Of a stretch of 54,560 bases of DNA, positions 2,565-38,287 are shown in pieces. Location of the stretch: NCBI GenBank assembly GCA_938083135.1, contig CALLKY010000008.1, forward strand, positions 1-54,560, written 5' to 3'. The translations under genes were made by a program, and so were the position numbers. The notes beneath the pieces were generated by a model that was given only the letters and a program-made list of their open reading frames with translations, was not told where the DNA came from and made no database searches. Source of the DNA: an uncultured Alphaproteobacteria bacterium (GTDB lineage Bacteria > Pseudomonadota > Alphaproteobacteria > Bin95). The first letter of the stretch is position 1; each line of letters starts with the position of its first letter.

Positions 2565-2819
2565 ATGAATAAGCCACAACTCGTCGCCGCCGCTGTCGCT
2601 GCCGCTGTTGGCATGTCTTTCGCTGCTGGCCAGGCCGTTGCCGCCGACAAGAAAATGGAAAAGTGCTACGGCGTTGTTAAAGCTGGCGCCAATGATTGCC
2701 AGACTGCAACCAGCTCCTGCGCTGGCACGTCCAAAGTTGATGGCCAGAAGGATGCTTGGGTTCTCGTACCAGCTGGTCTTTGCGATCGCCTTTCCGGCTC
2801 CGCTAAAGCCGCCAGCTAA
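2565..2819 (+). CDS. bufA1: Bufferin precursor peptide, BufA1 type (DUF2282)
   Basis: An 84-residue precursor with a cleavable signal peptide (residues 1-26, AVA-A site) and a short mature part with four cysteines at 34, 45, 52 and 73. The segments EKCYGVVKAGANDC, SCAGTSKVDGQ and DAWVLVPAGLC match the DUF2282/BufA1 family. In this family the cysteines are modified by the adjacent DUF692 (MNIO) enzyme and its DUF2063 partner. The exported product chelates copper in the periplasm (known from Caulobacter bufferins). A strong AAGGAG lies just upstream of the ATG. It is first in a bufA1-B-C-D cluster. Copper binding here is inferred from the family. Confidence 0.88.
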   Translation: MNKPQLVAAAVAAAVGMSFAAGQAVAADKKMEKCYGVVKAGANDCQTATSSCAGTSKVDGQKDAWVLVPAGLCDRLSGSAKAAS

Positions 2820-2854
2820 CGCTGACGCGCTGACAGACTAACCGGACGCACGCG

Positions 2855-3730
2855 ATGACACTTTCGCAGCATCCGGCGCCAACGGGGCCGATTCCAGCAA
2901 AAGCTGGGATCGGCCTCCGCGCGCCGCATTTCGAACAGATCGTCGAAGAGCGGCCTGATATTCCCTGGCTGGAATTCCACCCGGAGAATTATTTGGGCGG
3001 CGGCGCGCCTTATCTGTACCTGGAGCGCATTCGCCAGGATTATCCGATGTCGATGCACGGCGTTGGCCTGTCACTAGGCTCCGTCGGCGGCCTCGACAAA
3101 GAGCACTTGGCCCGGCTGGCAGACCTGGCCGACCATATCGAGCCCGGCCTGATCTCCGAACATTTATCATTCGCCCGCGTCGGCGCTGATTACCTGAACG
3201 ACCTCCTGCCGCTGCCCTATACGGAAGAAGCGTTGGCCCAGGTTGTCAGCAATGTGCAGCAAGCCCAGGACGCGTTCAAACGCCCGATTCTCGTCGAAAA
3301 CGCCTCCGCCTATATGACCTTCGCCGCCTCAACCATGCCCGAGCATGTGTTCATGGCCGAAGTTTGCCGCCAGGCTGGATGCAAAGCGCTGCTCGACGTG
3401 AACAATGTTTATGTGAATGCGCGCAATCATGATTTTGACGCCAGCGCCTTCATCGCCGAAACGCCAGCAGATATTATCGGCGAGATCCATCTTGCCGGTC
3501 ATGCCGTCAATTTGTTCGATGATGGCCAGGAAATTCGCATCGATGACCATGGCTCCCACGTGGACGCCGCCGTATGGACGCTGTTCGAACAGGCCATCAC
3601 CCATGCCGGCCGCGTTCCAGCGCTGATCGAATGGGATACGCGCATTCCAGCCCTAGAAGTCCTGCAGGATGAGGCCGCCCGCGCTGAAGCGATCTTGTCT
3701 GCCCATAGTGATGCTGCTGATGCAGCCTAA
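2855..3730 (+). CDS. bufB: MNIO (DUF692) bufferin-modifying enzyme
   Basis: A 291-residue DUF692 protein, now called multinuclear non-heme iron-dependent oxidative enzymes (MNIO). Likely iron ligands follow the family pattern: His68 (SMHGVGLS), Glu102-His103 (SEHLSF), Glu148 (VENAS), Asp181 and Asn183 (LLDVNNVYV), His192, His212 and His216 (IHLAGHA), His232 and Glu259-Asp261 (LIEWD). Family members oxidise precursor cysteines to thiooxazole-type heterocycles. The gene lies 35 bases after bufA1 and overlaps bufC, so BufA1 is the obvious substrate. There is no signal peptide, so modification should be cytoplasmic and precede export. The identity is firm; the exact product chemistry is inferred. 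Confidence 0.88.
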   Translation: MTLSQHPAPTGPIPAKAGIGLRAPHFEQIVEERPDIPWLEFHPENYLGGGAPYLYLERIRQDYPMSMHGVGLSLGSVGGLDKEHLARLADLADHIEPGLISEHLSFARVGADYLNDLLPLPYTEEALAQVVSNVQQAQDAFKRPILVENASAYMTFAASTMPEHVFMAEVCRQAGCKALLDVNNVYVNARNHDFDASAFIAETPADIIGEIHLAGHAVNLFDDGQEIRIDDHGSHVDAAVWTLFEQAITHAGRVPALIEWDTRIPALEVLQDEAARAEAILSAHSDAADAA

Positions 3731-4535
3731 CCTTTCCACCCTACAAGCAGATTTCCGCGCGACTGTGTTGGCGGATACCGGCGCGGATGGGGCTGAACCA
3801 GCGCCACCCGCAGCCCTGCTGGCGGCAGTGAACGCGAACGGCATTCCGCCAGAACGCCGGCTCGCCATTCACAGAAATCATTTCGCCACAACGCTGATAG
3901 ACGCGCTCGGCGGGATCTTTGAAGCGACACGGGCATTGCTTGGGCCGGAATTCTTTGATGCCTTCGCCAAATGCTATGTCAGGGCGCATCCGCCTTCCAC
4001 ACCGGGATTGTTCGAATATGGTGAGGCATTCCCGGATGCACTTGCCAATACGCCCGGATTAGCAGATCACGGATATGTGATAGATGTGGCGCGGCTTGAA
4101 TGGGCCATGCATGAAAGCTTCCATGCGCCCGCTGCCCCAGCGCTTCAGCCAAGCCGGTTGACAGCCTTGCCAGCGGACCAAATTGGCGACGCCCTTCTGG
4201 AAGCGCATCCAACTGTTCGCCTGATCCAAGCCACGTTTCCCGTTCATGCGCTTTGGCGTGGGGCGCTGGATAACGCGGTCGATGGCGACATGCTGCACGG
4301 TGAGCCAGCGCATTTGATCCTATCCAGGCCGAACCTGGATGTAGAATTGGCACCGCTGGCACCTGCAGCATATGCTTTCGTGAACGCATTGTTTGCTGGC
4401 CAATCCATCGGTCAAGCCGCAGGCACAGGTGCGAGCGCAAGCACGACCACGGGCGAATTCGATCTCGGCGAAACATTGGGGGCCTGCCTTGCGCAGACGG
4501 TCTTTGCCGACGTAGTGAACACCGGAAACATTTAA
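3720..4535 (+). CDS. bufC: DUF2063 partner protein of the bufferin enzyme
   Basis: A DUF2063-type protein of about 271 residues. The N-terminal region ([13 protein letters not shown], then [18 protein letters not shown]) and the [13 protein letters not shown] segment resemble the DNA-binding-domain-like and partner regions found beside DUF692 enzymes. In MNIO systems this partner recognises the precursor leader and presents it to the iron enzyme. Start choice: ATG 3720 (MQPNLSTLQ) overlaps bufB by 11 bases; ATG 3711 is nearly as good, and neither has a clear Shine-Dalgarno, which suggests translational coupling to bufB. It differs strongly from the second DUF2063 protein at 6379-7170, so each probably serves its own precursor. 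Confidence 0.82.
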
Positions 4536-4546
4536 CGGAGGGCGAT

Positions 4547-5020
4547 ATGTACGAAACGGGGCGCGTTCCACGCGAAGGCGTGTTGGGCATTTGGGACCGG
4601 CTGGTCAATCTGTCTGAACAGATTCCTATGTGGTTGATCCTGCTGACGACGCGAATTGGCATCGCCATGATCTTCTTGAAGTCTGGAATGACGAAAACAA
4701 CAACGGGGCTCAATCTCGCGGATGGCACATTCACGCTGTTTGAGTATGAGTATGCCCTGCCCATCATCCCATCAGATATCGCCGCATATTTAGCGACATA
4801 TGCTGAACATATCTTCCCGATTCTGCTGATCGTCGGCCTGTTCGGGCGTCTTTCTGCGCTGAGCTTGCTTGGGATGACGCTGGTCATTCAGATCTTCGTC
4901 TACCCCAATCTCTGGGACATTCACTTGTTCTGGGCTGGTGCGCTCTTACTGCTCGTGGCCAAGGGTCCTGGGGCGGTTTCGCTGGATGCGATTATCGTCA
5001 AATTCATGGACCGAAAGTGA
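4547..5020 (+). CDS. bufD: DoxX-family membrane protein of the bufferin cluster
   Basis: A 157-residue integral membrane protein with about four hydrophobic segments. The opening region ([20 protein letters not shown]) and the [20 protein letters not shown] segment are typical of DoxX proteins. It starts with a good GGAGG seven bases before the ATG and only 11 bases after bufC, completing a bufA1-B-C-D operon. DoxX proteins are frequent last members of DUF2282/DUF692/DUF2063 clusters. A role in redox balance or in handling the modified peptide is possible but unproven. The second cluster lacks this gene. Confidence 0.82.
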
Positions 5021-5162
5021 ATAAACTGTAATTCACGGGGATGTGATAAGACTTTAATCATCTAATCCGCTCCATGATCGTTCATTACGTACAGCCTTTT
5101 AGCGGGTGGTCCGCTAGGGGAATGTGAGACCAAGTTTCGAAATCAAACACGGAGGATTAAAT

Positions 5163-5417
5163 ATGAAAGTTTCTAAAACAACGGGCCTGATGGTTGCCGC
5201 TGCAGCCGCCGCAATGTTCGCAGCCGGTACGGTCGTCACGACCCCAGCCGCTGCTGGCGGTGGCGTCAAATGCGTTGGCGCCAACTCTTGCAAGGGCTCC
5301 AGCGCCTGCGCCACTGCGACAAGCGCCTGCAAAGGCCAGAACGCATGCAAAGGCCATGGCTGGACAAAAGCGGCTTCTGCCGATGCTTGCACGAAGGCCG
5401 GCGGTAAGCCTGCCTGA
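5163..5417 (+). CDS. bufA2: Bufferin precursor peptide, BufA2 type
   Basis: An 84-residue precursor with a signal peptide (residues 1-31, ending TTPAAA) and a mature core with six cysteines at 37, 43, 49, 56, 62 and 76 spaced in short repeats (SCKGSSAC, SACKGQNACKG). This is the BufA2-like arrangement that accompanies DUF692 enzymes, distinct from the four-cysteine BufA1. Start is the ATG at 5163, preceded by GGAGGA seven bases upstream; an in-frame upstream ATG at 5124 would spoil the signal peptide. The 142-base gap before it suggests its own promoter, though I see no convincing consensus. A strong hairpin follows the gene. Metal binding is inferred from the family. Confidence 0.85.
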   Translation: MKVSKTTGLMVAAAAAAMFAAGTVVTTPAAAGGGVKCVGANSCKGSSACATATSACKGQNACKGHGWTKAASADACTKAGGKPA

Positions 5418-5441
5418 TCCAAGCTTCACGCTTGATTGATG

Positions 5442-5477
5442 CGGCCGGGCCTGGAAACAGGCCCGGCCGTATTGTTT
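5442..5477 (+). terminator. Strong GC hairpin between bufA2 and bufB2
   Basis: Twelve-base perfect arms (5442-5453 and 5458-5469) enclose a GAAA loop and are followed by TATTGTTTTC. This is a good intrinsic terminator or attenuator. Because bufB2 begins only 38 bases later with no obvious promoter of its own, partial read-through would give much bufA2 mRNA and less enzyme mRNA. Confidence 0.75.
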
Positions 5478-5506
5478 TCTGGATCAGAGTTTCCAATATC
5501 TAAGCC

Positions 5507-6379
5507 ATGACACAGCAGCCCACACAGCCTGAACGCAGCCGCCCCTATCTCGGATTCGGCCTTGGCCTCCGCCCGCAGCATTATGCAGACTTGCTGGAGC
5601 GCCCCGACGATGCGCCAGACCCGCGCGTCGACTGGTTCGAGATCATCTCTGAGAATTATATGAGCGCTGGTGGACGCCCGCTGATCAACCTGGACCGGGT
5701 GCGTGAACGCTATCCGATGGTGATGCACGGCGTGTCGCTCTCCATCGGCTCCGTCGATCCGCTGGACCGGGATTATCTCGACAGCCTGAAAGCACTGGCG
5801 GAACGGGTTGATCCCGCCTGGATTTCCGATCACCTCTGCTGGACCGGCGTTGATGGCGTCAACCTGCATGACCTGCTGCCGCTGCCTTACACGGAGGAAG
5901 CGCTGGCTCATGTGGTCGACCGAATTGGCCAGGTGCAGGACCATCTGGGCCGCCGCATCGCACTCGAAAACGCCTCGACCTACGTGACCTTCACGCATTC
6001 TGAGATGAGCGAGTGGGATTTTCTGGCGGAGATGGCGAAGCGCGCTGATTGTGACCTGCTGCTGGACGTCAACAATATCTTTGTCTCCGGCTTCAACCAC
6101 GGCTTTGACCCGATTGATTTCATCGAAGGCCTGCCAGCGGAGCGGATCGTCCAGATCCACCTGGCCGGGCACGAACATAACGAAACCCACATCGTCGACA
6201 CCCATGATGCGCCAGTGATCGAGGCCGTATGGTCGCTTTATGGCGAAGCAATCAGCCGCCTTGGCCCCATCACAACCATGATCGAACGGGACGCTGATAT
6301 CCCGCCGCTCGCCGATATGGAGACGGAGCTTGATCGCGCCCGCACCATTGCAGCCAAAGCTTTAGAGCGGGCAGCCTGA
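5507..6379 (+). CDS. bufB: Second MNIO (DUF692) bufferin-modifying enzyme
   Basis: A 290-residue DUF692 enzyme homologous to the one at 2855-3730 but clearly diverged. The likely iron ligands are kept: His74 (VMHGVSLS), His109 (SDHLCW), Glu154 (LENAS), Asp187 and Asn189 (LLDVNNIFV), His198, His218 and His222 (IHLAGHE), His233 and Glu260-Asp262 (MIERD). One family position differs from the first copy (SDH here, SEH there). It follows bufA2 and overlaps the next gene by one base (TGATG), so it should act on BufA2 with the DUF2063 protein that follows. Cytoplasmic; no signal peptide. Confidence 0.87.
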   Translation: MTQQPTQPERSRPYLGFGLGLRPQHYADLLERPDDAPDPRVDWFEIISENYMSAGGRPLINLDRVRERYPMVMHGVSLSIGSVDPLDRDYLDSLKALAERVDPAWISDHLCWTGVDGVNLHDLLPLPYTEEALAHVVDRIGQVQDHLGRRIALENASTYVTFTHSEMSEWDFLAEMAKRADCDLLLDVNNIFVSGFNHGFDPIDFIEGLPAERIVQIHLAGHEHNETHIVDTHDAPVIEAVWSLYGEAISRLGPITTMIERDADIPPLADMETELDRARTIAAKALERAA

Positions 6380-7170
6380 TGCGCTTGCCCGAATTACAGC
6401 GCGCCTTCGCCGCCCGGATGCTGACCGGCGATGACGCCATCATGGCGCTGGTTCAGGATAGCCGCTTGGAACGCCGGGATGTGCTGATGGGCGTGTATGA
6501 ACACGCTTACGGTGCCCGCCTCGCGGAAGTTCTGGAAGGCGATTACGAGAAACTGCATGCTGCCATTGGGCCAGATGCATTTCTTCAGATTGCAGCGGAT
6601 TACGTAGCGGCGAACCCATCGCGCCACCCCAATGCCCGCTTCTTTGGCGCTGGCGTCCCTGCATTCCTGCTGCAAACCGCACCGTGGTCCGCAACGCCCT
6701 GGCATGGCGAGCTGGCTATGCTCGAATGGGCCATGGGCGAAGTGTTCCTGGCAGAAGATGCCGCACATCTTTCCATGGAAGCCATGGCGGCACTGCACCC
6801 GAATGATTGGCCGAACCTGACATTCACGCTCGCGGACGACATCCGGCGGATCACAACGCGCCATGGCGGGCCGGAGGCTTGGCTGGCCATCCATGATGAT
6901 ACAGACCCAGCCCCCGCCGCGGCAGCCGCGGATGGGGACGCGCAAGCCTGGCTGATCTGGCGGGATGACTTCCAAGCGAACTTCCGCGCCATGGACCCAC
7001 CGGAAGCCTGGGCGCTCAACGAAGCCGATGGTGGTGCGACCTTCGCTGAACTATGTGAAGGCCTGATGGAATGGGTTCCGGCAGAGGAAGCCGCCGGACA
7101 CGCTGCGGGCTATCTCCGGGGCTGGATTGAAGCGGGCGTGCTAGCAGGGTATGAAATTAAGGAGGCATAG
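6379..7170 (+). CDS. bufC: Second DUF2063 partner protein
   Basis: A 263-residue protein opening with LPELQRAFAARML and RRDVLMGVYEHAYGARLAEVL, the N-terminal pattern of DUF2063 partners of DUF692 enzymes, followed by AMLEWAMGEVFLAED. Its ATG overlaps the stop of the preceding MNIO gene, indicating tight coupling and a stable complex. A low-complexity alanine- and aspartate-rich linker (about residues 176-187) separates the N-terminal part from a C-terminal domain ending in a helical segment (RGWIEAGVLAGYEI). Precursor recognition is inferred from family knowledge. Similarity to the first copy is limited to the family pattern. Confidence 0.82.
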   Translation: MRLPELQRAFAARMLTGDDAIMALVQDSRLERRDVLMGVYEHAYGARLAEVLEGDYEKLHAAIGPDAFLQIAADYVAANPSRHPNARFFGAGVPAFLLQTAPWSATPWHGELAMLEWAMGEVFLAEDAAHLSMEAMAALHPNDWPNLTFTLADDIRRITTRHGGPEAWLAIHDDTDPAPAAAAADGDAQAWLIWRDDFQANFRAMDPPEAWALNEADGGATFAELCEGLMEWVPAEEAAGHAAGYLRGWIEAGVLAGYEIKEA

Positions 7171-35008: not shown

Positions 35009-35773
35009 TCAGGCTTTGCGTTTTCGGCTCTGATTAAGCCGATAGCTCTCGCCGTTCATTTCGAGGATGTGGACGTGGTGGGTCAGTCGATCGAGAATAG
35101 CGCCAGTCAGGCGTTCCGAGCCGAAGACCTCAGTCCATTCATCAAAAGGCAGGTTTGAGGTGATGATGATCGATCCGCGCTCATAGCGCTGTGAGATGAC
35201 CTCGAAGAGCAGTTCAGCCCCGGTCTTGCTGAGGGGAACAAAGCCGAGCTCGTCAATAATAAGTAGGTCCTGGGCGGCCATTTGCTTTTGATGACGTTGA
35301 AGGCGTCGCTCATCGGCGGCCTCAATCATTTCGTGGACGAGAGCCGCAGCCGTAGTGAAGCGGACCTTCAGTCCCTTTTGACAAGCTGCCAGTCCTAGCC
35401 CGAGGGCAATATGCGTTTTGCCGGTTCCACTTGGTCCGAGGGCGATCACGTTCTGACGCTTTGCAATGAACTCGCAGCGTGCCAGTTCCATCGTTAGAAC
35501 CTTGTTCAGCGACGGCATGACCTTGAAGTCGAAGCTATCGAGGCTCTTGGTTGCCGGGAACTTAGCGGTCTTAATCCGCCGTTCGACCATCCGACGCTCA
35601 CGCTCGATCAGCTCCAGCTCGCAGAGCCGCAGCAGATATTGCACATGGTCCTTGTTCTCGGTCGCGCATTGCTGGGCCAGCTTGGCGTACTCGCTCTGGA
35701 AGGTTGGTAGCCGGAGCTTGGTCAGGTGATGCTTCAGCAGGACCTGCGGGGTGTCAGTTGTTGTGTCGATCAT
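35009..35773 (-). CDS. istB: IS21-family helper ATPase IstB
   Basis: A 254-residue AAA+ ATPase related to DnaC that assists the IstA transposase. Walker A GPSGTGKTHIALGLG (about residues 105-119), Walker B DLLIIDELGFVPLSK and the arginine-finger region (QRYERGSIIITSNLPFDEW) are intact. Its ATG overlaps the istA stop by four bases. Full length for the family, so probably functional. Confidence 0.95.
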   Translation of the reverse strand: MIDTTTDTPQVLLKHHLTKLRLPTFQSEYAKLAQQCATENKDHVQYLLRLCELELIERERRMVERRIKTAKFPATKSLDSFDFKVMPSLNKVLTMELARCEFIAKRQNVIALGPSGTGKTHIALGLGLAACQKGLKVRFTTAAALVHEMIEAADERRLQRHQKQMAAQDLLIIDELGFVPLSKTGAELLFEVISQRYERGSIIITSNLPFDEWTEVFGSERLTGAILDRLTHHVHILEMNGESYRLNQSRKRKA

Positions 35774-37269
35774 GCTGCCACTCCTGACAGGAGCACCGCG
35801 TAGCTGGCTGGCTTTGTCGTCTCGACCACCGCTTTCGGCAGATAGGGGTAAATATCGAGATCCAGCCTGGGTGGCCGCCGCTCGATCCGACAGAGGACGA
35901 GGTGTTTGACGGCATCGTAGCCGATGGCACCCAGGTCGAGGGCCTGCCGGATGGCGCCGTGGACATGGTCCATCTCGAAGGTTTCCAGCAACCGCAGGAC
36001 CTGGACATATTCGCGCTTGCCAGGCTTTCCCATTCGCGCTTCCAGCAAGCGGCGCAGAGTTGCAAACTCACCGGGCAGATCCCACCCCTGGAGAGGGGCT
36101 GCCTGATCCAAAGCGCCGACCTTCTGCTCAAGTAGCGGCAGATAGTGCATTGGATCGAAGATCATGTCCGCCTTCTCATAAGACCGAACGTGTCGTGCGA
36201 TCACCGCGGCGCCGCAACCGATGACAACCTCATGGATATAGCCGCGGACCTGAACTTCATGATGGGCAAATGCTGTCGGCACGGAGTAATCGTTGGTGCG
36301 ATACCGGACCATTGAGATGGACGTTGCGCGCGTGCTGACCTTCTCACAGGCGTCATAAGGCGTCGGCGGCAAGGCCATCAGCGTATCAAGGTCGCGCATC
36401 AGACGTTCGCCGATCGTCTCACTATGTCCGCGGACAACATCATCCTGGCGTTTCAGGCATTGCGCCTCCAGCCAGGCGTTCAGTGCATCGAAGCTGTCGA
36501 ACCGGGGAGCCGGAACCAGGAAGTTCCGCCGGCCAAAGCCGATCACACCCTCGACATTGCCCTTGTCATTCCCTTTGCCAGGCCGCCCAAACTTGTCCTC
36601 GAACAGATAATGGGATTGCAGCTCTGAGAAGACCCGTGTCCGCACCCGCTTCCCGTCACCGAGGATCTTGGTGACGGCAATGACGGTGTTGTCATAAAGC
36701 ATCGACAACGGCACGCCGCCGAAGAAGGCAAAGGCTGCGGTGTGGCCATCGCAAAACGCCTCTGTCGTCTCTGCTGGATACGCCTTCATAAAGAACGCAT
36801 CCGAATGCGGCAGCGACAGCGCGAAGTAATGCAGCTTGCATTCGACCCCGCCGATGACCCCAAGCGTCTCGCCAAAATCCACCTGAGCATGGCCCGGCGC
36901 ATGAAACAGCGGCACAAAAACTTCCCGTGTCCGCCGCTGCCGCTCCCGAACATAGTCGGTCACAATCGTAAGGCCGCCAGTGAAGCCATGTTCATCACGC
37001 AGCCGGGCATGGATGCGCTTCGATGTATGCCGCTGTTTCTTGATAACCCGTTTGTCGTCTTCCAGGATCTGGTTAATGACCCCAATGAACGGATCAAGCT
37101 TCGGCCGAGAAGGCGCTCGCTCTCGTCGGTATCCTGGCGGAACCGAGTGCTTCAGGATCTTCGAAACGGTCTTGCGGTCTATCCCAAAATGCTGCGCCGC
37201 TGCTCGAGCACTCATTCCATCAACGTGGCAGGCCCGGCGAACTCGCCCATATAATTCCACAGTATACAT
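35770..37269 (-). CDS. istA: IS21-family transposase IstA
   Basis: A 499-residue DDE transposase. N-terminal HTH (SARAAAQHFGIDRKTVSKIL), then an rve-type core with AQVDFGE, LSMLYDNT and the last acidic residue in KGNVEGVIGFGRRNFLVP. The C-terminal part (about 320-499) is the usual IstA extension. Full length and uninterrupted; with istB it makes a complete element inside the island. Confidence 0.95.
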   Translation of the reverse strand: MYTVELYGRVRRACHVDGMSARAAAQHFGIDRKTVSKILKHSVPPGYRRERAPSRPKLDPFIGVINQILEDDKRVIKKQRHTSKRIHARLRDEHGFTGGLTIVTDYVRERQRRTREVFVPLFHAPGHAQVDFGETLGVIGGVECKLHYFALSLPHSDAFFMKAYPAETTEAFCDGHTAAFAFFGGVPLSMLYDNTVIAVTKILGDGKRVRTRVFSELQSHYLFEDKFGRPGKGNDKGNVEGVIGFGRRNFLVPAPRFDSFDALNAWLEAQCLKRQDDVVRGHSETIGERLMRDLDTLMALPPTPYDACEKVSTRATSISMVRYRTNDYSVPTAFAHHEVQVRGYIHEVVIGCGAAVIARHVRSYEKADMIFDPMHYLPLLEQKVGALDQAAPLQGWDLPGEFATLRRLLEARMGKPGKREYVQVLRLLETFEMDHVHGAIRQALDLGAIGYDAVKHLVLCRIERRPPRLDLDIYPYLPKAVVETTKPASYAVLLSGVAA

Positions 37270-37372
37270 CTCCCCGCCTTCAGCTCGTTGCTTCCAGCGT
37301 AAAGTGGCGGACTTTTAATCCGCGACGATCAGAAAATCCGACCACTTCTGTGGACCAATTTGCCTCCGGGAT

Positions 37373-38287
37373 TCACATTTTAAATTCGTATAAATTCTCC
37401 ATATCTTGATCATTAATATGCCAAGCGAGATATCTCACACGATCCTTATCTTTTAGTTTTTTCAATCCAATTTCGTGCTTTGGTTTCCGAATTTCCTGTC
37501 CATTATCGTCCAAATAACAAAAAACCCATTTATTTTTTACGAGATACGATTTCCCAGATGCATTGGCACTTATTGCGGAGCTAGAGACCTCGTGTTGAAA
37601 CGCAAACTCATCGGCATTTTTAAAGACCTTATCTGTTACCAGATTTTTGACCTTTCTCGCAAATTTACCGATAACTTTTTCTGAAGCATGTCCCGCTGTA
37701 AGTAACGGATTATCCTCTAGGTCCAACCAAGCGAAACGAGAACCGTTTTGAAGCATGGCTCCCGTATTACAACTCTTCCGTATATGGTCTTTTGTCTCAC
37801 TTTCCATCTTGCAGGCTTTGGTCATGGTTCTGTATTTTTGGCCCGTGACCAAGTTAATAACGGGTTTTAAAACTCCCGCTTCTCGACGAAATAGATCAGA
37901 AGTGGCATTGGGTTTTGAGGTTCTTTTTATCGGCCGGGCAAAAGTGGGTGACGGTTCTGGGTCTTTTTTATTGTGTACAGTATTCAGTAAATCAACGCTT
38001 ACAGCATGCAATTTTTCGATATAACTTTTCTCTACTTTAAATTGATTTCCTCGTTCACAAATTTCGAGAGTGATCCATTCCCAATTCGCAAATCCTGTAT
38101 TTATGAGGGTGTCATGAAATCTAGTCCCGTCACCCTTCCTCGCTGAATCTTCATGTTCCTTTTTGCGTTCCGAAAGTGCCCGCTCTGTTTTTCCAATATA
38201 AATTTCGGTTGTCTCAAGTGTGCTTTTGGCCATGTAGATGATTGACTCGTCATCACTGGGTTTGTAATCGCTCATTTTCGACTCCAA
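37373..38287 (-). CDS. GIY-YIG endonuclease with intron-nuclease DNA-binding repeats
   Basis: A 304-residue protein. Residues 15-100 form a GIY-YIG nuclease domain (ETTEIYIGKTERALSERKKE, then WEWITLEICERGN and EKSYIEKLHA with the catalytic glutamate region). Two later segments, VINLVTGQKYRTMTKACKM and KNADEFAFQHEVSSSAIS, look like the NUMOD/IENR1-type DNA-binding repeats of homing endonucleases. The gene is strikingly AT-rich compared with everything around it, so it came from elsewhere, possibly a phage. The stop lies within about 20 bases of the IS21 end; the C-terminus may have been trimmed. ATG 38275 (MSDYKPSDDE) is an alternative start. The target is unknown. Confidence 0.75.
   Translation of the reverse strand: MESKMSDYKPSDDESIIYMAKSTLETTEIYIGKTERALSERKKEHEDSARKGDGTRFHDTLINTGFANWEWITLEICERGNQFKVEKSYIEKLHAVSVDLLNTVHNKKDPEPSPTFARPIKRTSKPNATSDLFRREAGVLKPVINLVTGQKYRTMTKACKMESETKDHIRKSCNTGAMLQNGSRFAWLDLEDNPLLTAGHASEKVIGKFARKVKNLVTDKVFKNADEFAFQHEVSSSAISANASGKSYLVKNKWVFCYLDDNGQEIRKPKHEIGLKKLKDKDRVRYLAWHINDQDMENLYEFKM

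Follow-up and report, generated by a model that had tools for sequence, protein, structure and literature searches.

Why would a bacterium keep two bufferin clusters side by side, each with enzymes of its own? The question is raised by 4.6 kb of DNA within the window, by which we mean the whole 54,560-nucleotide stretch that was analysed. The preliminary description had proposed dedicated enzyme-precursor pairs, perhaps with different modifications or metals. We consider it probable, at roughly 85%, that a Buf1 operon and a Buf2 operon stand here in tandem as separate, largely isofunctional lineages of ancient origin, which would share one chemistry and retain their own enzyme pairs.

Bufferins are grouped with oxazolin and fontiphorin as captophorins, copper RiPPs that carry thiooxazoles (PMC12668002). 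The window resembles these systems in combining an MNIO with PME1 (DUF2063), and its two precursors fall into the DUF2282 and Cys-Lys groups.

The locus and its surroundings

All seven genes of the preliminary description are confirmed on the plus strand. Positions 2565-5020 form a complete Buf1 cluster, bufA1-B1-C1-D, and positions 5163-7170 a complete Buf2 cluster, bufA2-B2-C2, also entirely on the plus strand. The features are as follows.

2565..2819, plus strand: bufA1, Buf1-type (DUF2282) precursor of 84 aa with an N-terminal Sec-like signal and 4 Cys
2855..3730, plus strand: bufB1, MNIO (DUF692) enzyme of 291 aa, in the Buf1-associated MNIO clade
3720..4535, plus strand: bufC1, DUF2063/RRE partner protein of 271 aa, its start overlapping the bufB1 stop
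4547..5020, plus strand: bufD, DoxX-family membrane protein of 157 aa
5033..5046, plus strand: TCAC-N6-GTGA palindrome upstream of bufA2, a candidate operator
5163..5417, plus strand: bufA2, Buf2-type precursor of 84 aa with an N-terminal Sec-like signal and 6 Cys with Cys-Lys motifs
5437..5474, plus strand: hairpin with a 17-bp stem followed by TTTT, between bufA2 and bufB2
5507..6379, plus strand: bufB2, MNIO (DUF692) enzyme of 290 aa, in the Buf2-associated MNIO clade
6379..7170, plus strand: bufC2, DUF2063/RRE partner protein of 263 aa, its start overlapping the bufB2 stop

The better start of bufC1 is the ATG at 3720, and bufB and bufC share a few bases in each cluster. Profile searches against Pfam and NCBIfam place every part above the cut-off in at least one library: BufA1 as DUF2282 (E 6.5e-23, 80.9 bits, cut-off 22.4), BufB1 and BufB2 as MNIOs (PF05114, 331 and 376 bits; NF050167 MNIO_BufB, 356 and 383 bits, cut-off 310), BufC1 and BufC2 as DUF2063 proteins (PF09836, 76 and about 57 bits, gathering cut-off 27.2), BufD as DoxX (56.7 bits, gathering cut-off 23.6) and BufA2 as Cu_RiPP_BufA2 (NF050166, 79.7 bits, cut-off 60). 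Coordinates and family models for all parts thus bear out the claim that an A1-B-C-D cluster and an A2-B-C cluster lie side by side.

The flanks are unrelated to bufferins, with a creatininase-family gene upstream on the other strand and an MFS transporter downstream. Elsewhere in the window, GC content is low at 35770-38287 (0.45-0.48 at 37-39 kb); genes for an IS21-type transposase-like protein and a GIY-YIG-like nuclease were read there by eye, and the stretch is likely a mobile insertion.

Conceivably, all seven genes are transcribed as a single 4.6 kb unit, its two bufferins belonging to one stress response and not being tuned separately; such a reading concerns control alone and is compatible with tandem operons. 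The genes share a strand and no terminator was detected in the 142 bp gap between bufD and bufA2. Yet this gap holds the palindrome, which is found upstream of bufA2 in the window and in three related genomes (G002, G003 and G006) and suggests a separate bufA2 promoter, and we regard the single unit as possible, with the odds somewhat against it.

Enzyme lineages and precursor types

Only two MNIOs are encoded in the whole genome, both at this locus. BufB1 and BufB2 are 45.6% identical, and BufC1 and BufC2 about 31% over 150 aa, confirming that each cluster has a diverged MNIO and DUF2063 protein of its own. A recent tandem duplication, which the preliminary description had named as a finding that would speak against it, is excluded by this divergence (46% and about 31% identity), and the two enzymes stand on opposite sides of the tree. 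Judged by their sequences, the enzyme pairs are anciently diverged paralogous lineages.

Two systems with separate enzymes in one genome are known from Caulobacter (PMC3511200) and Legionella (PMC12452194). Caulobacter vibrioides carries a Buf1 operon (CC3254-3257) and a Buf2 operon (CC2907-2905) (PMC3511200, PMC12452194) with the same internal orders as in the window, A1-B1-C1-D and A2-B2-C2, and with an MNIO and a DUF2063 protein in each. Identity between its paralogues is 43% for the MNIOs, similar to the 45.6% seen here, and 23% for the partners (PMC3511200). The Caulobacter operons lie apart, however, whereas those of the window are adjacent. Legionella pneumophila subsp. fraseri likewise combines several Buf1 and Buf2 precursors with several MNIOs in one genome (PMC12452194), yet it has seven MNIOs, whereas the window's genome has only two, physically together.

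Does the lineage of an enzyme follow the type of its precursor? The MNIO tree comprised 142 MNIOs, taken from 80 named loci and from genomes of the family and class. Each was labelled by the precursor directly upstream, a label that rests on gene neighbourhood, which gave 36 Buf1-linked and 89 Buf2-linked enzymes; resemblance to the window's BufB2 was the basis for choosing the Buf2 sample, and most of the Buf1 sample comes from Alphaproteobacteria. Precursor type switches 2 times on the tree of these labelled enzymes, against at least 26 in 100 label shuffles, and once on the DUF2063 tree (36 and 62 rows), against 23 or more in 60 shuffles. In both trees, the phylogeny that the preliminary description had proposed as a check, the window's proteins join the clade of their own neighbouring precursor, BufB1 and BufC1 in Buf1 clades and BufB2 and BufC2 in Buf2 clades. 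At two loci (L007 and L129) the enzyme is next to an A2-labelled precursor but does not fall within the Buf2 clade; the opposite strand of each locus also encodes a Buf1-type precursor.

These counts support dedicated enzyme-precursor pairs, as opposed to a recent duplication. Precursor-specific MNIO subgroups have already been reported in published work and are not new here. Co-segregation reflects shared history, not specificity in vivo, as a linked MNIO and partner could travel together non-exclusively; that each of the pairs acts specifically in vivo we infer.

Might the enzyme pairs instead be interchangeable, so that the second operon does no more than raise the amount of one copper buffer? 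MNIOs of the Buf1 and Buf2 types are regarded as isofunctional, and tandem precursors served by one MNIO, as well as stray precursors that have no local MNIO, have been reported (PMC12452194); captophorin MNIOs are highly tolerant of sequence change (PMC12668002); and at one locus (L034) the whole buf2 cluster separates bufA1 from bufB1, so linkage need not be tight. Cross-processing nevertheless appears rather unlikely to us, given that the lineage of enzyme and partner follows precursor type almost perfectly and that both pairs are intact even where the clusters touch (the window, G002, L036 and L051).

Peptides, active sites and modification

Published relatives of the dedicated pairs suggest how they would work. 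Each cytoplasmic MNIO-DUF2063 complex would recognise its own precursor, probably via the signal peptide, acting as leader, and residues around the cysteines, and would oxidise precursor cysteines to 5-thiooxazoles, the modification assigned to the whole captophorin group (PMC12668002). The modified peptides would reach the periplasm by Sec export and there bind excess copper.

Both precursors resemble their relatives. The four cysteines of BufA1 are spaced 11/7/21, as in 7 of 36 Buf1 relatives, and the six of BufA2 6/6/7/6/14, as in 29 of 85 Buf2 relatives; both spacings are among the common ones. The N-termini, judged from sequence pattern, have the charged start, Ala-rich hydrophobic stretch and AxA site found in relatives. 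A Buf1-type precursor elsewhere (L055, 9741-9998) has Tyr at the first conserved Cys (EKYYG) and is left with three cysteines.

Counterparts of all published MNIO iron ligands, mapped to TglH (His71, His107, Glu151, Asp184, Asn187, His216, Asp229, His231 and Glu258; PMC10880893), are present in BufB1 and BufB2, as is the Asp proposed as catalytic base (PMC12668002). Many alignment columns differ by MNIO type, some of them around the active site. One position is Cys in 89/89 Buf2 MNIOs and Ala or Ser in Buf1; directly before the catalytic Asp stands Arg in 87/89 Buf2 MNIOs as against Trp in 31/36 Buf1 MNIOs. BufB1 and BufB2 match their own type at these residues. After the catalytic Asp (IERDA), BufB2 has Ala, unlike most captophorin Cys-Lys MNIOs, where an Asp at this site is proposed to contact the Lys of the substrate (PMC12668002). 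Ala occupies this site in 14/89 Buf2 MNIOs, whose precursors retain Lys after Cys, and on that ground the idea that Buf2 MNIOs strictly require an Asp-Lys contact is rejected.

The further suggestion of the preliminary description, that the two peptides bear different modifications or serve different metals, could appeal to the type-dependent surroundings of the active site and to the six cysteines and Cys-Lys motifs of Buf2 set against the four cysteines of Buf1, where modification is reported for the central two alone (PMC12452194), but it found no support and is very unlikely, because iron ligands, identical in BufB1 and BufB2, and catalytic Asp are present in both enzymes and published work argues for similar modifications (PMC12452194) and gives the whole group one modification (PMC12668002), with preliminary data for C. 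vibrioides Buf2 giving the same mass loss per Cys, a 305 nm maximum and similar function (PMC12452194), and no metal-specific gene was seen directly beside either cluster.

The tandem arrangement and its control

Neither kind of bufferin is new; what stands out is only that the two lie so close together. Our sample of the class held 387 genomes, 37 of them with at least two MNIOs; both positions were listed for 24 of the 37, and in only three of these 24 are the MNIOs separated by about 2.7 kb, namely in the window's genome, in one of the same genus (G002) and in one of another genus of the family (G006), where the contig break falls inside bufB1 and the two contigs carry complementary halves. 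A further genome of the window's genus (G003), outside the 387-genome sample, likewise carries the pair, truncated by the end of a contig; in another genus of the family only Buf1 is present. Of the 80 loci closest to BufB2, seven have Buf1-type genes within 8 kb, in several gene orders (L034, L035, which is G006, L036, L050, L051, L055 and L106). The tandem is thus conserved in two genera of the family, rare in the rest of the class and recurrent in distant bacteria in other orders; gene order alone suggests that it arose more than once, by independent events.

Two of these loci differ in layout. At L034 (5340-9869, one strand) bufB1-C1 is followed by bufA2-B2-C2 and then by bufA1 and bufD, which leaves bufA1 away from its enzyme. 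At L036 (3407-6158) the Buf1 and Buf2 clusters are divergent, and the region they share contains one TCAC-N6-GTGA palindrome.

How are the clusters controlled? The ECF sigma factor SigF drives both operons in C. vibrioides. By contrast, NrsF is absent from the window's genome (the search control was positive in C. vibrioides), the SigF motif GTAACC-N16-CGAA has no exact site on the window's contig, and with up to two mismatches it is not above chance, with none upstream of bufA1 or bufA2. SigF control is rejected for this genome. No CueR-type site was found upstream of the bufA genes in any locus, and no EcfG-type site near the window; the latter occurs in 3/95 Buf2 loci against 0.6 expected.

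In 126 bufA upstream regions TCAC-N6-GTGA is the commonest of 2,560 four-base palindromes, with 21 loci against 11 for the next, a count that overstates independence since some of the 21 are close relatives; it never occurs together with a SigF-like motif (28 loci). A second copy in the window lies inside bufC1 (4067-4080). The longer form TCAC-N4-ATGTGA is found only three times in the genome, twice in the window's cluster and once upstream of an aminotransferase-like gene, which gives no clue to a regulator. No conserved regulator gene was evident beside palindrome-bearing loci, seven of which were inspected. At two loci (L070, 854-2576; L107, 4626-6378) inspection by eye shows, near buf2, a gene for a LytTR-like response regulator and one for a membrane protein, possibly a form of local control.

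It would be speculative, and in our view improbable, to take the tandem clusters as one co-regulated two-peptide copper buffer, its peptides differing for example in affinity or capacity, under non-SigF control by an undescribed regulator acting at TCAC-N6-GTGA as operator, with orthogonal enzyme pairs that selection keeps apart.

The hairpin between bufA2 and bufB2 combines its 17-bp stem with a T-run and has a fold z of -6.2. Comparable stems stand in 38/86 Buf2 and 10/36 Buf1 gaps between precursor and enzyme genes, where shuffles give 0.8 and 0.3. It likely acts as a partial terminator or attenuator, or forms an mRNA 3'-end, keeping the precursor above the enzyme.

The locus points to a second, non-SigF way of bufferin control. 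In the cases seen, adjacency of the two systems does not lead to enzyme sharing. Given that two cognate sets lie in one short locus that can be cloned as a unit, specificity is testable by swapping pairs within one species, and the locus is a good test bed for bufferin enzyme specificity.
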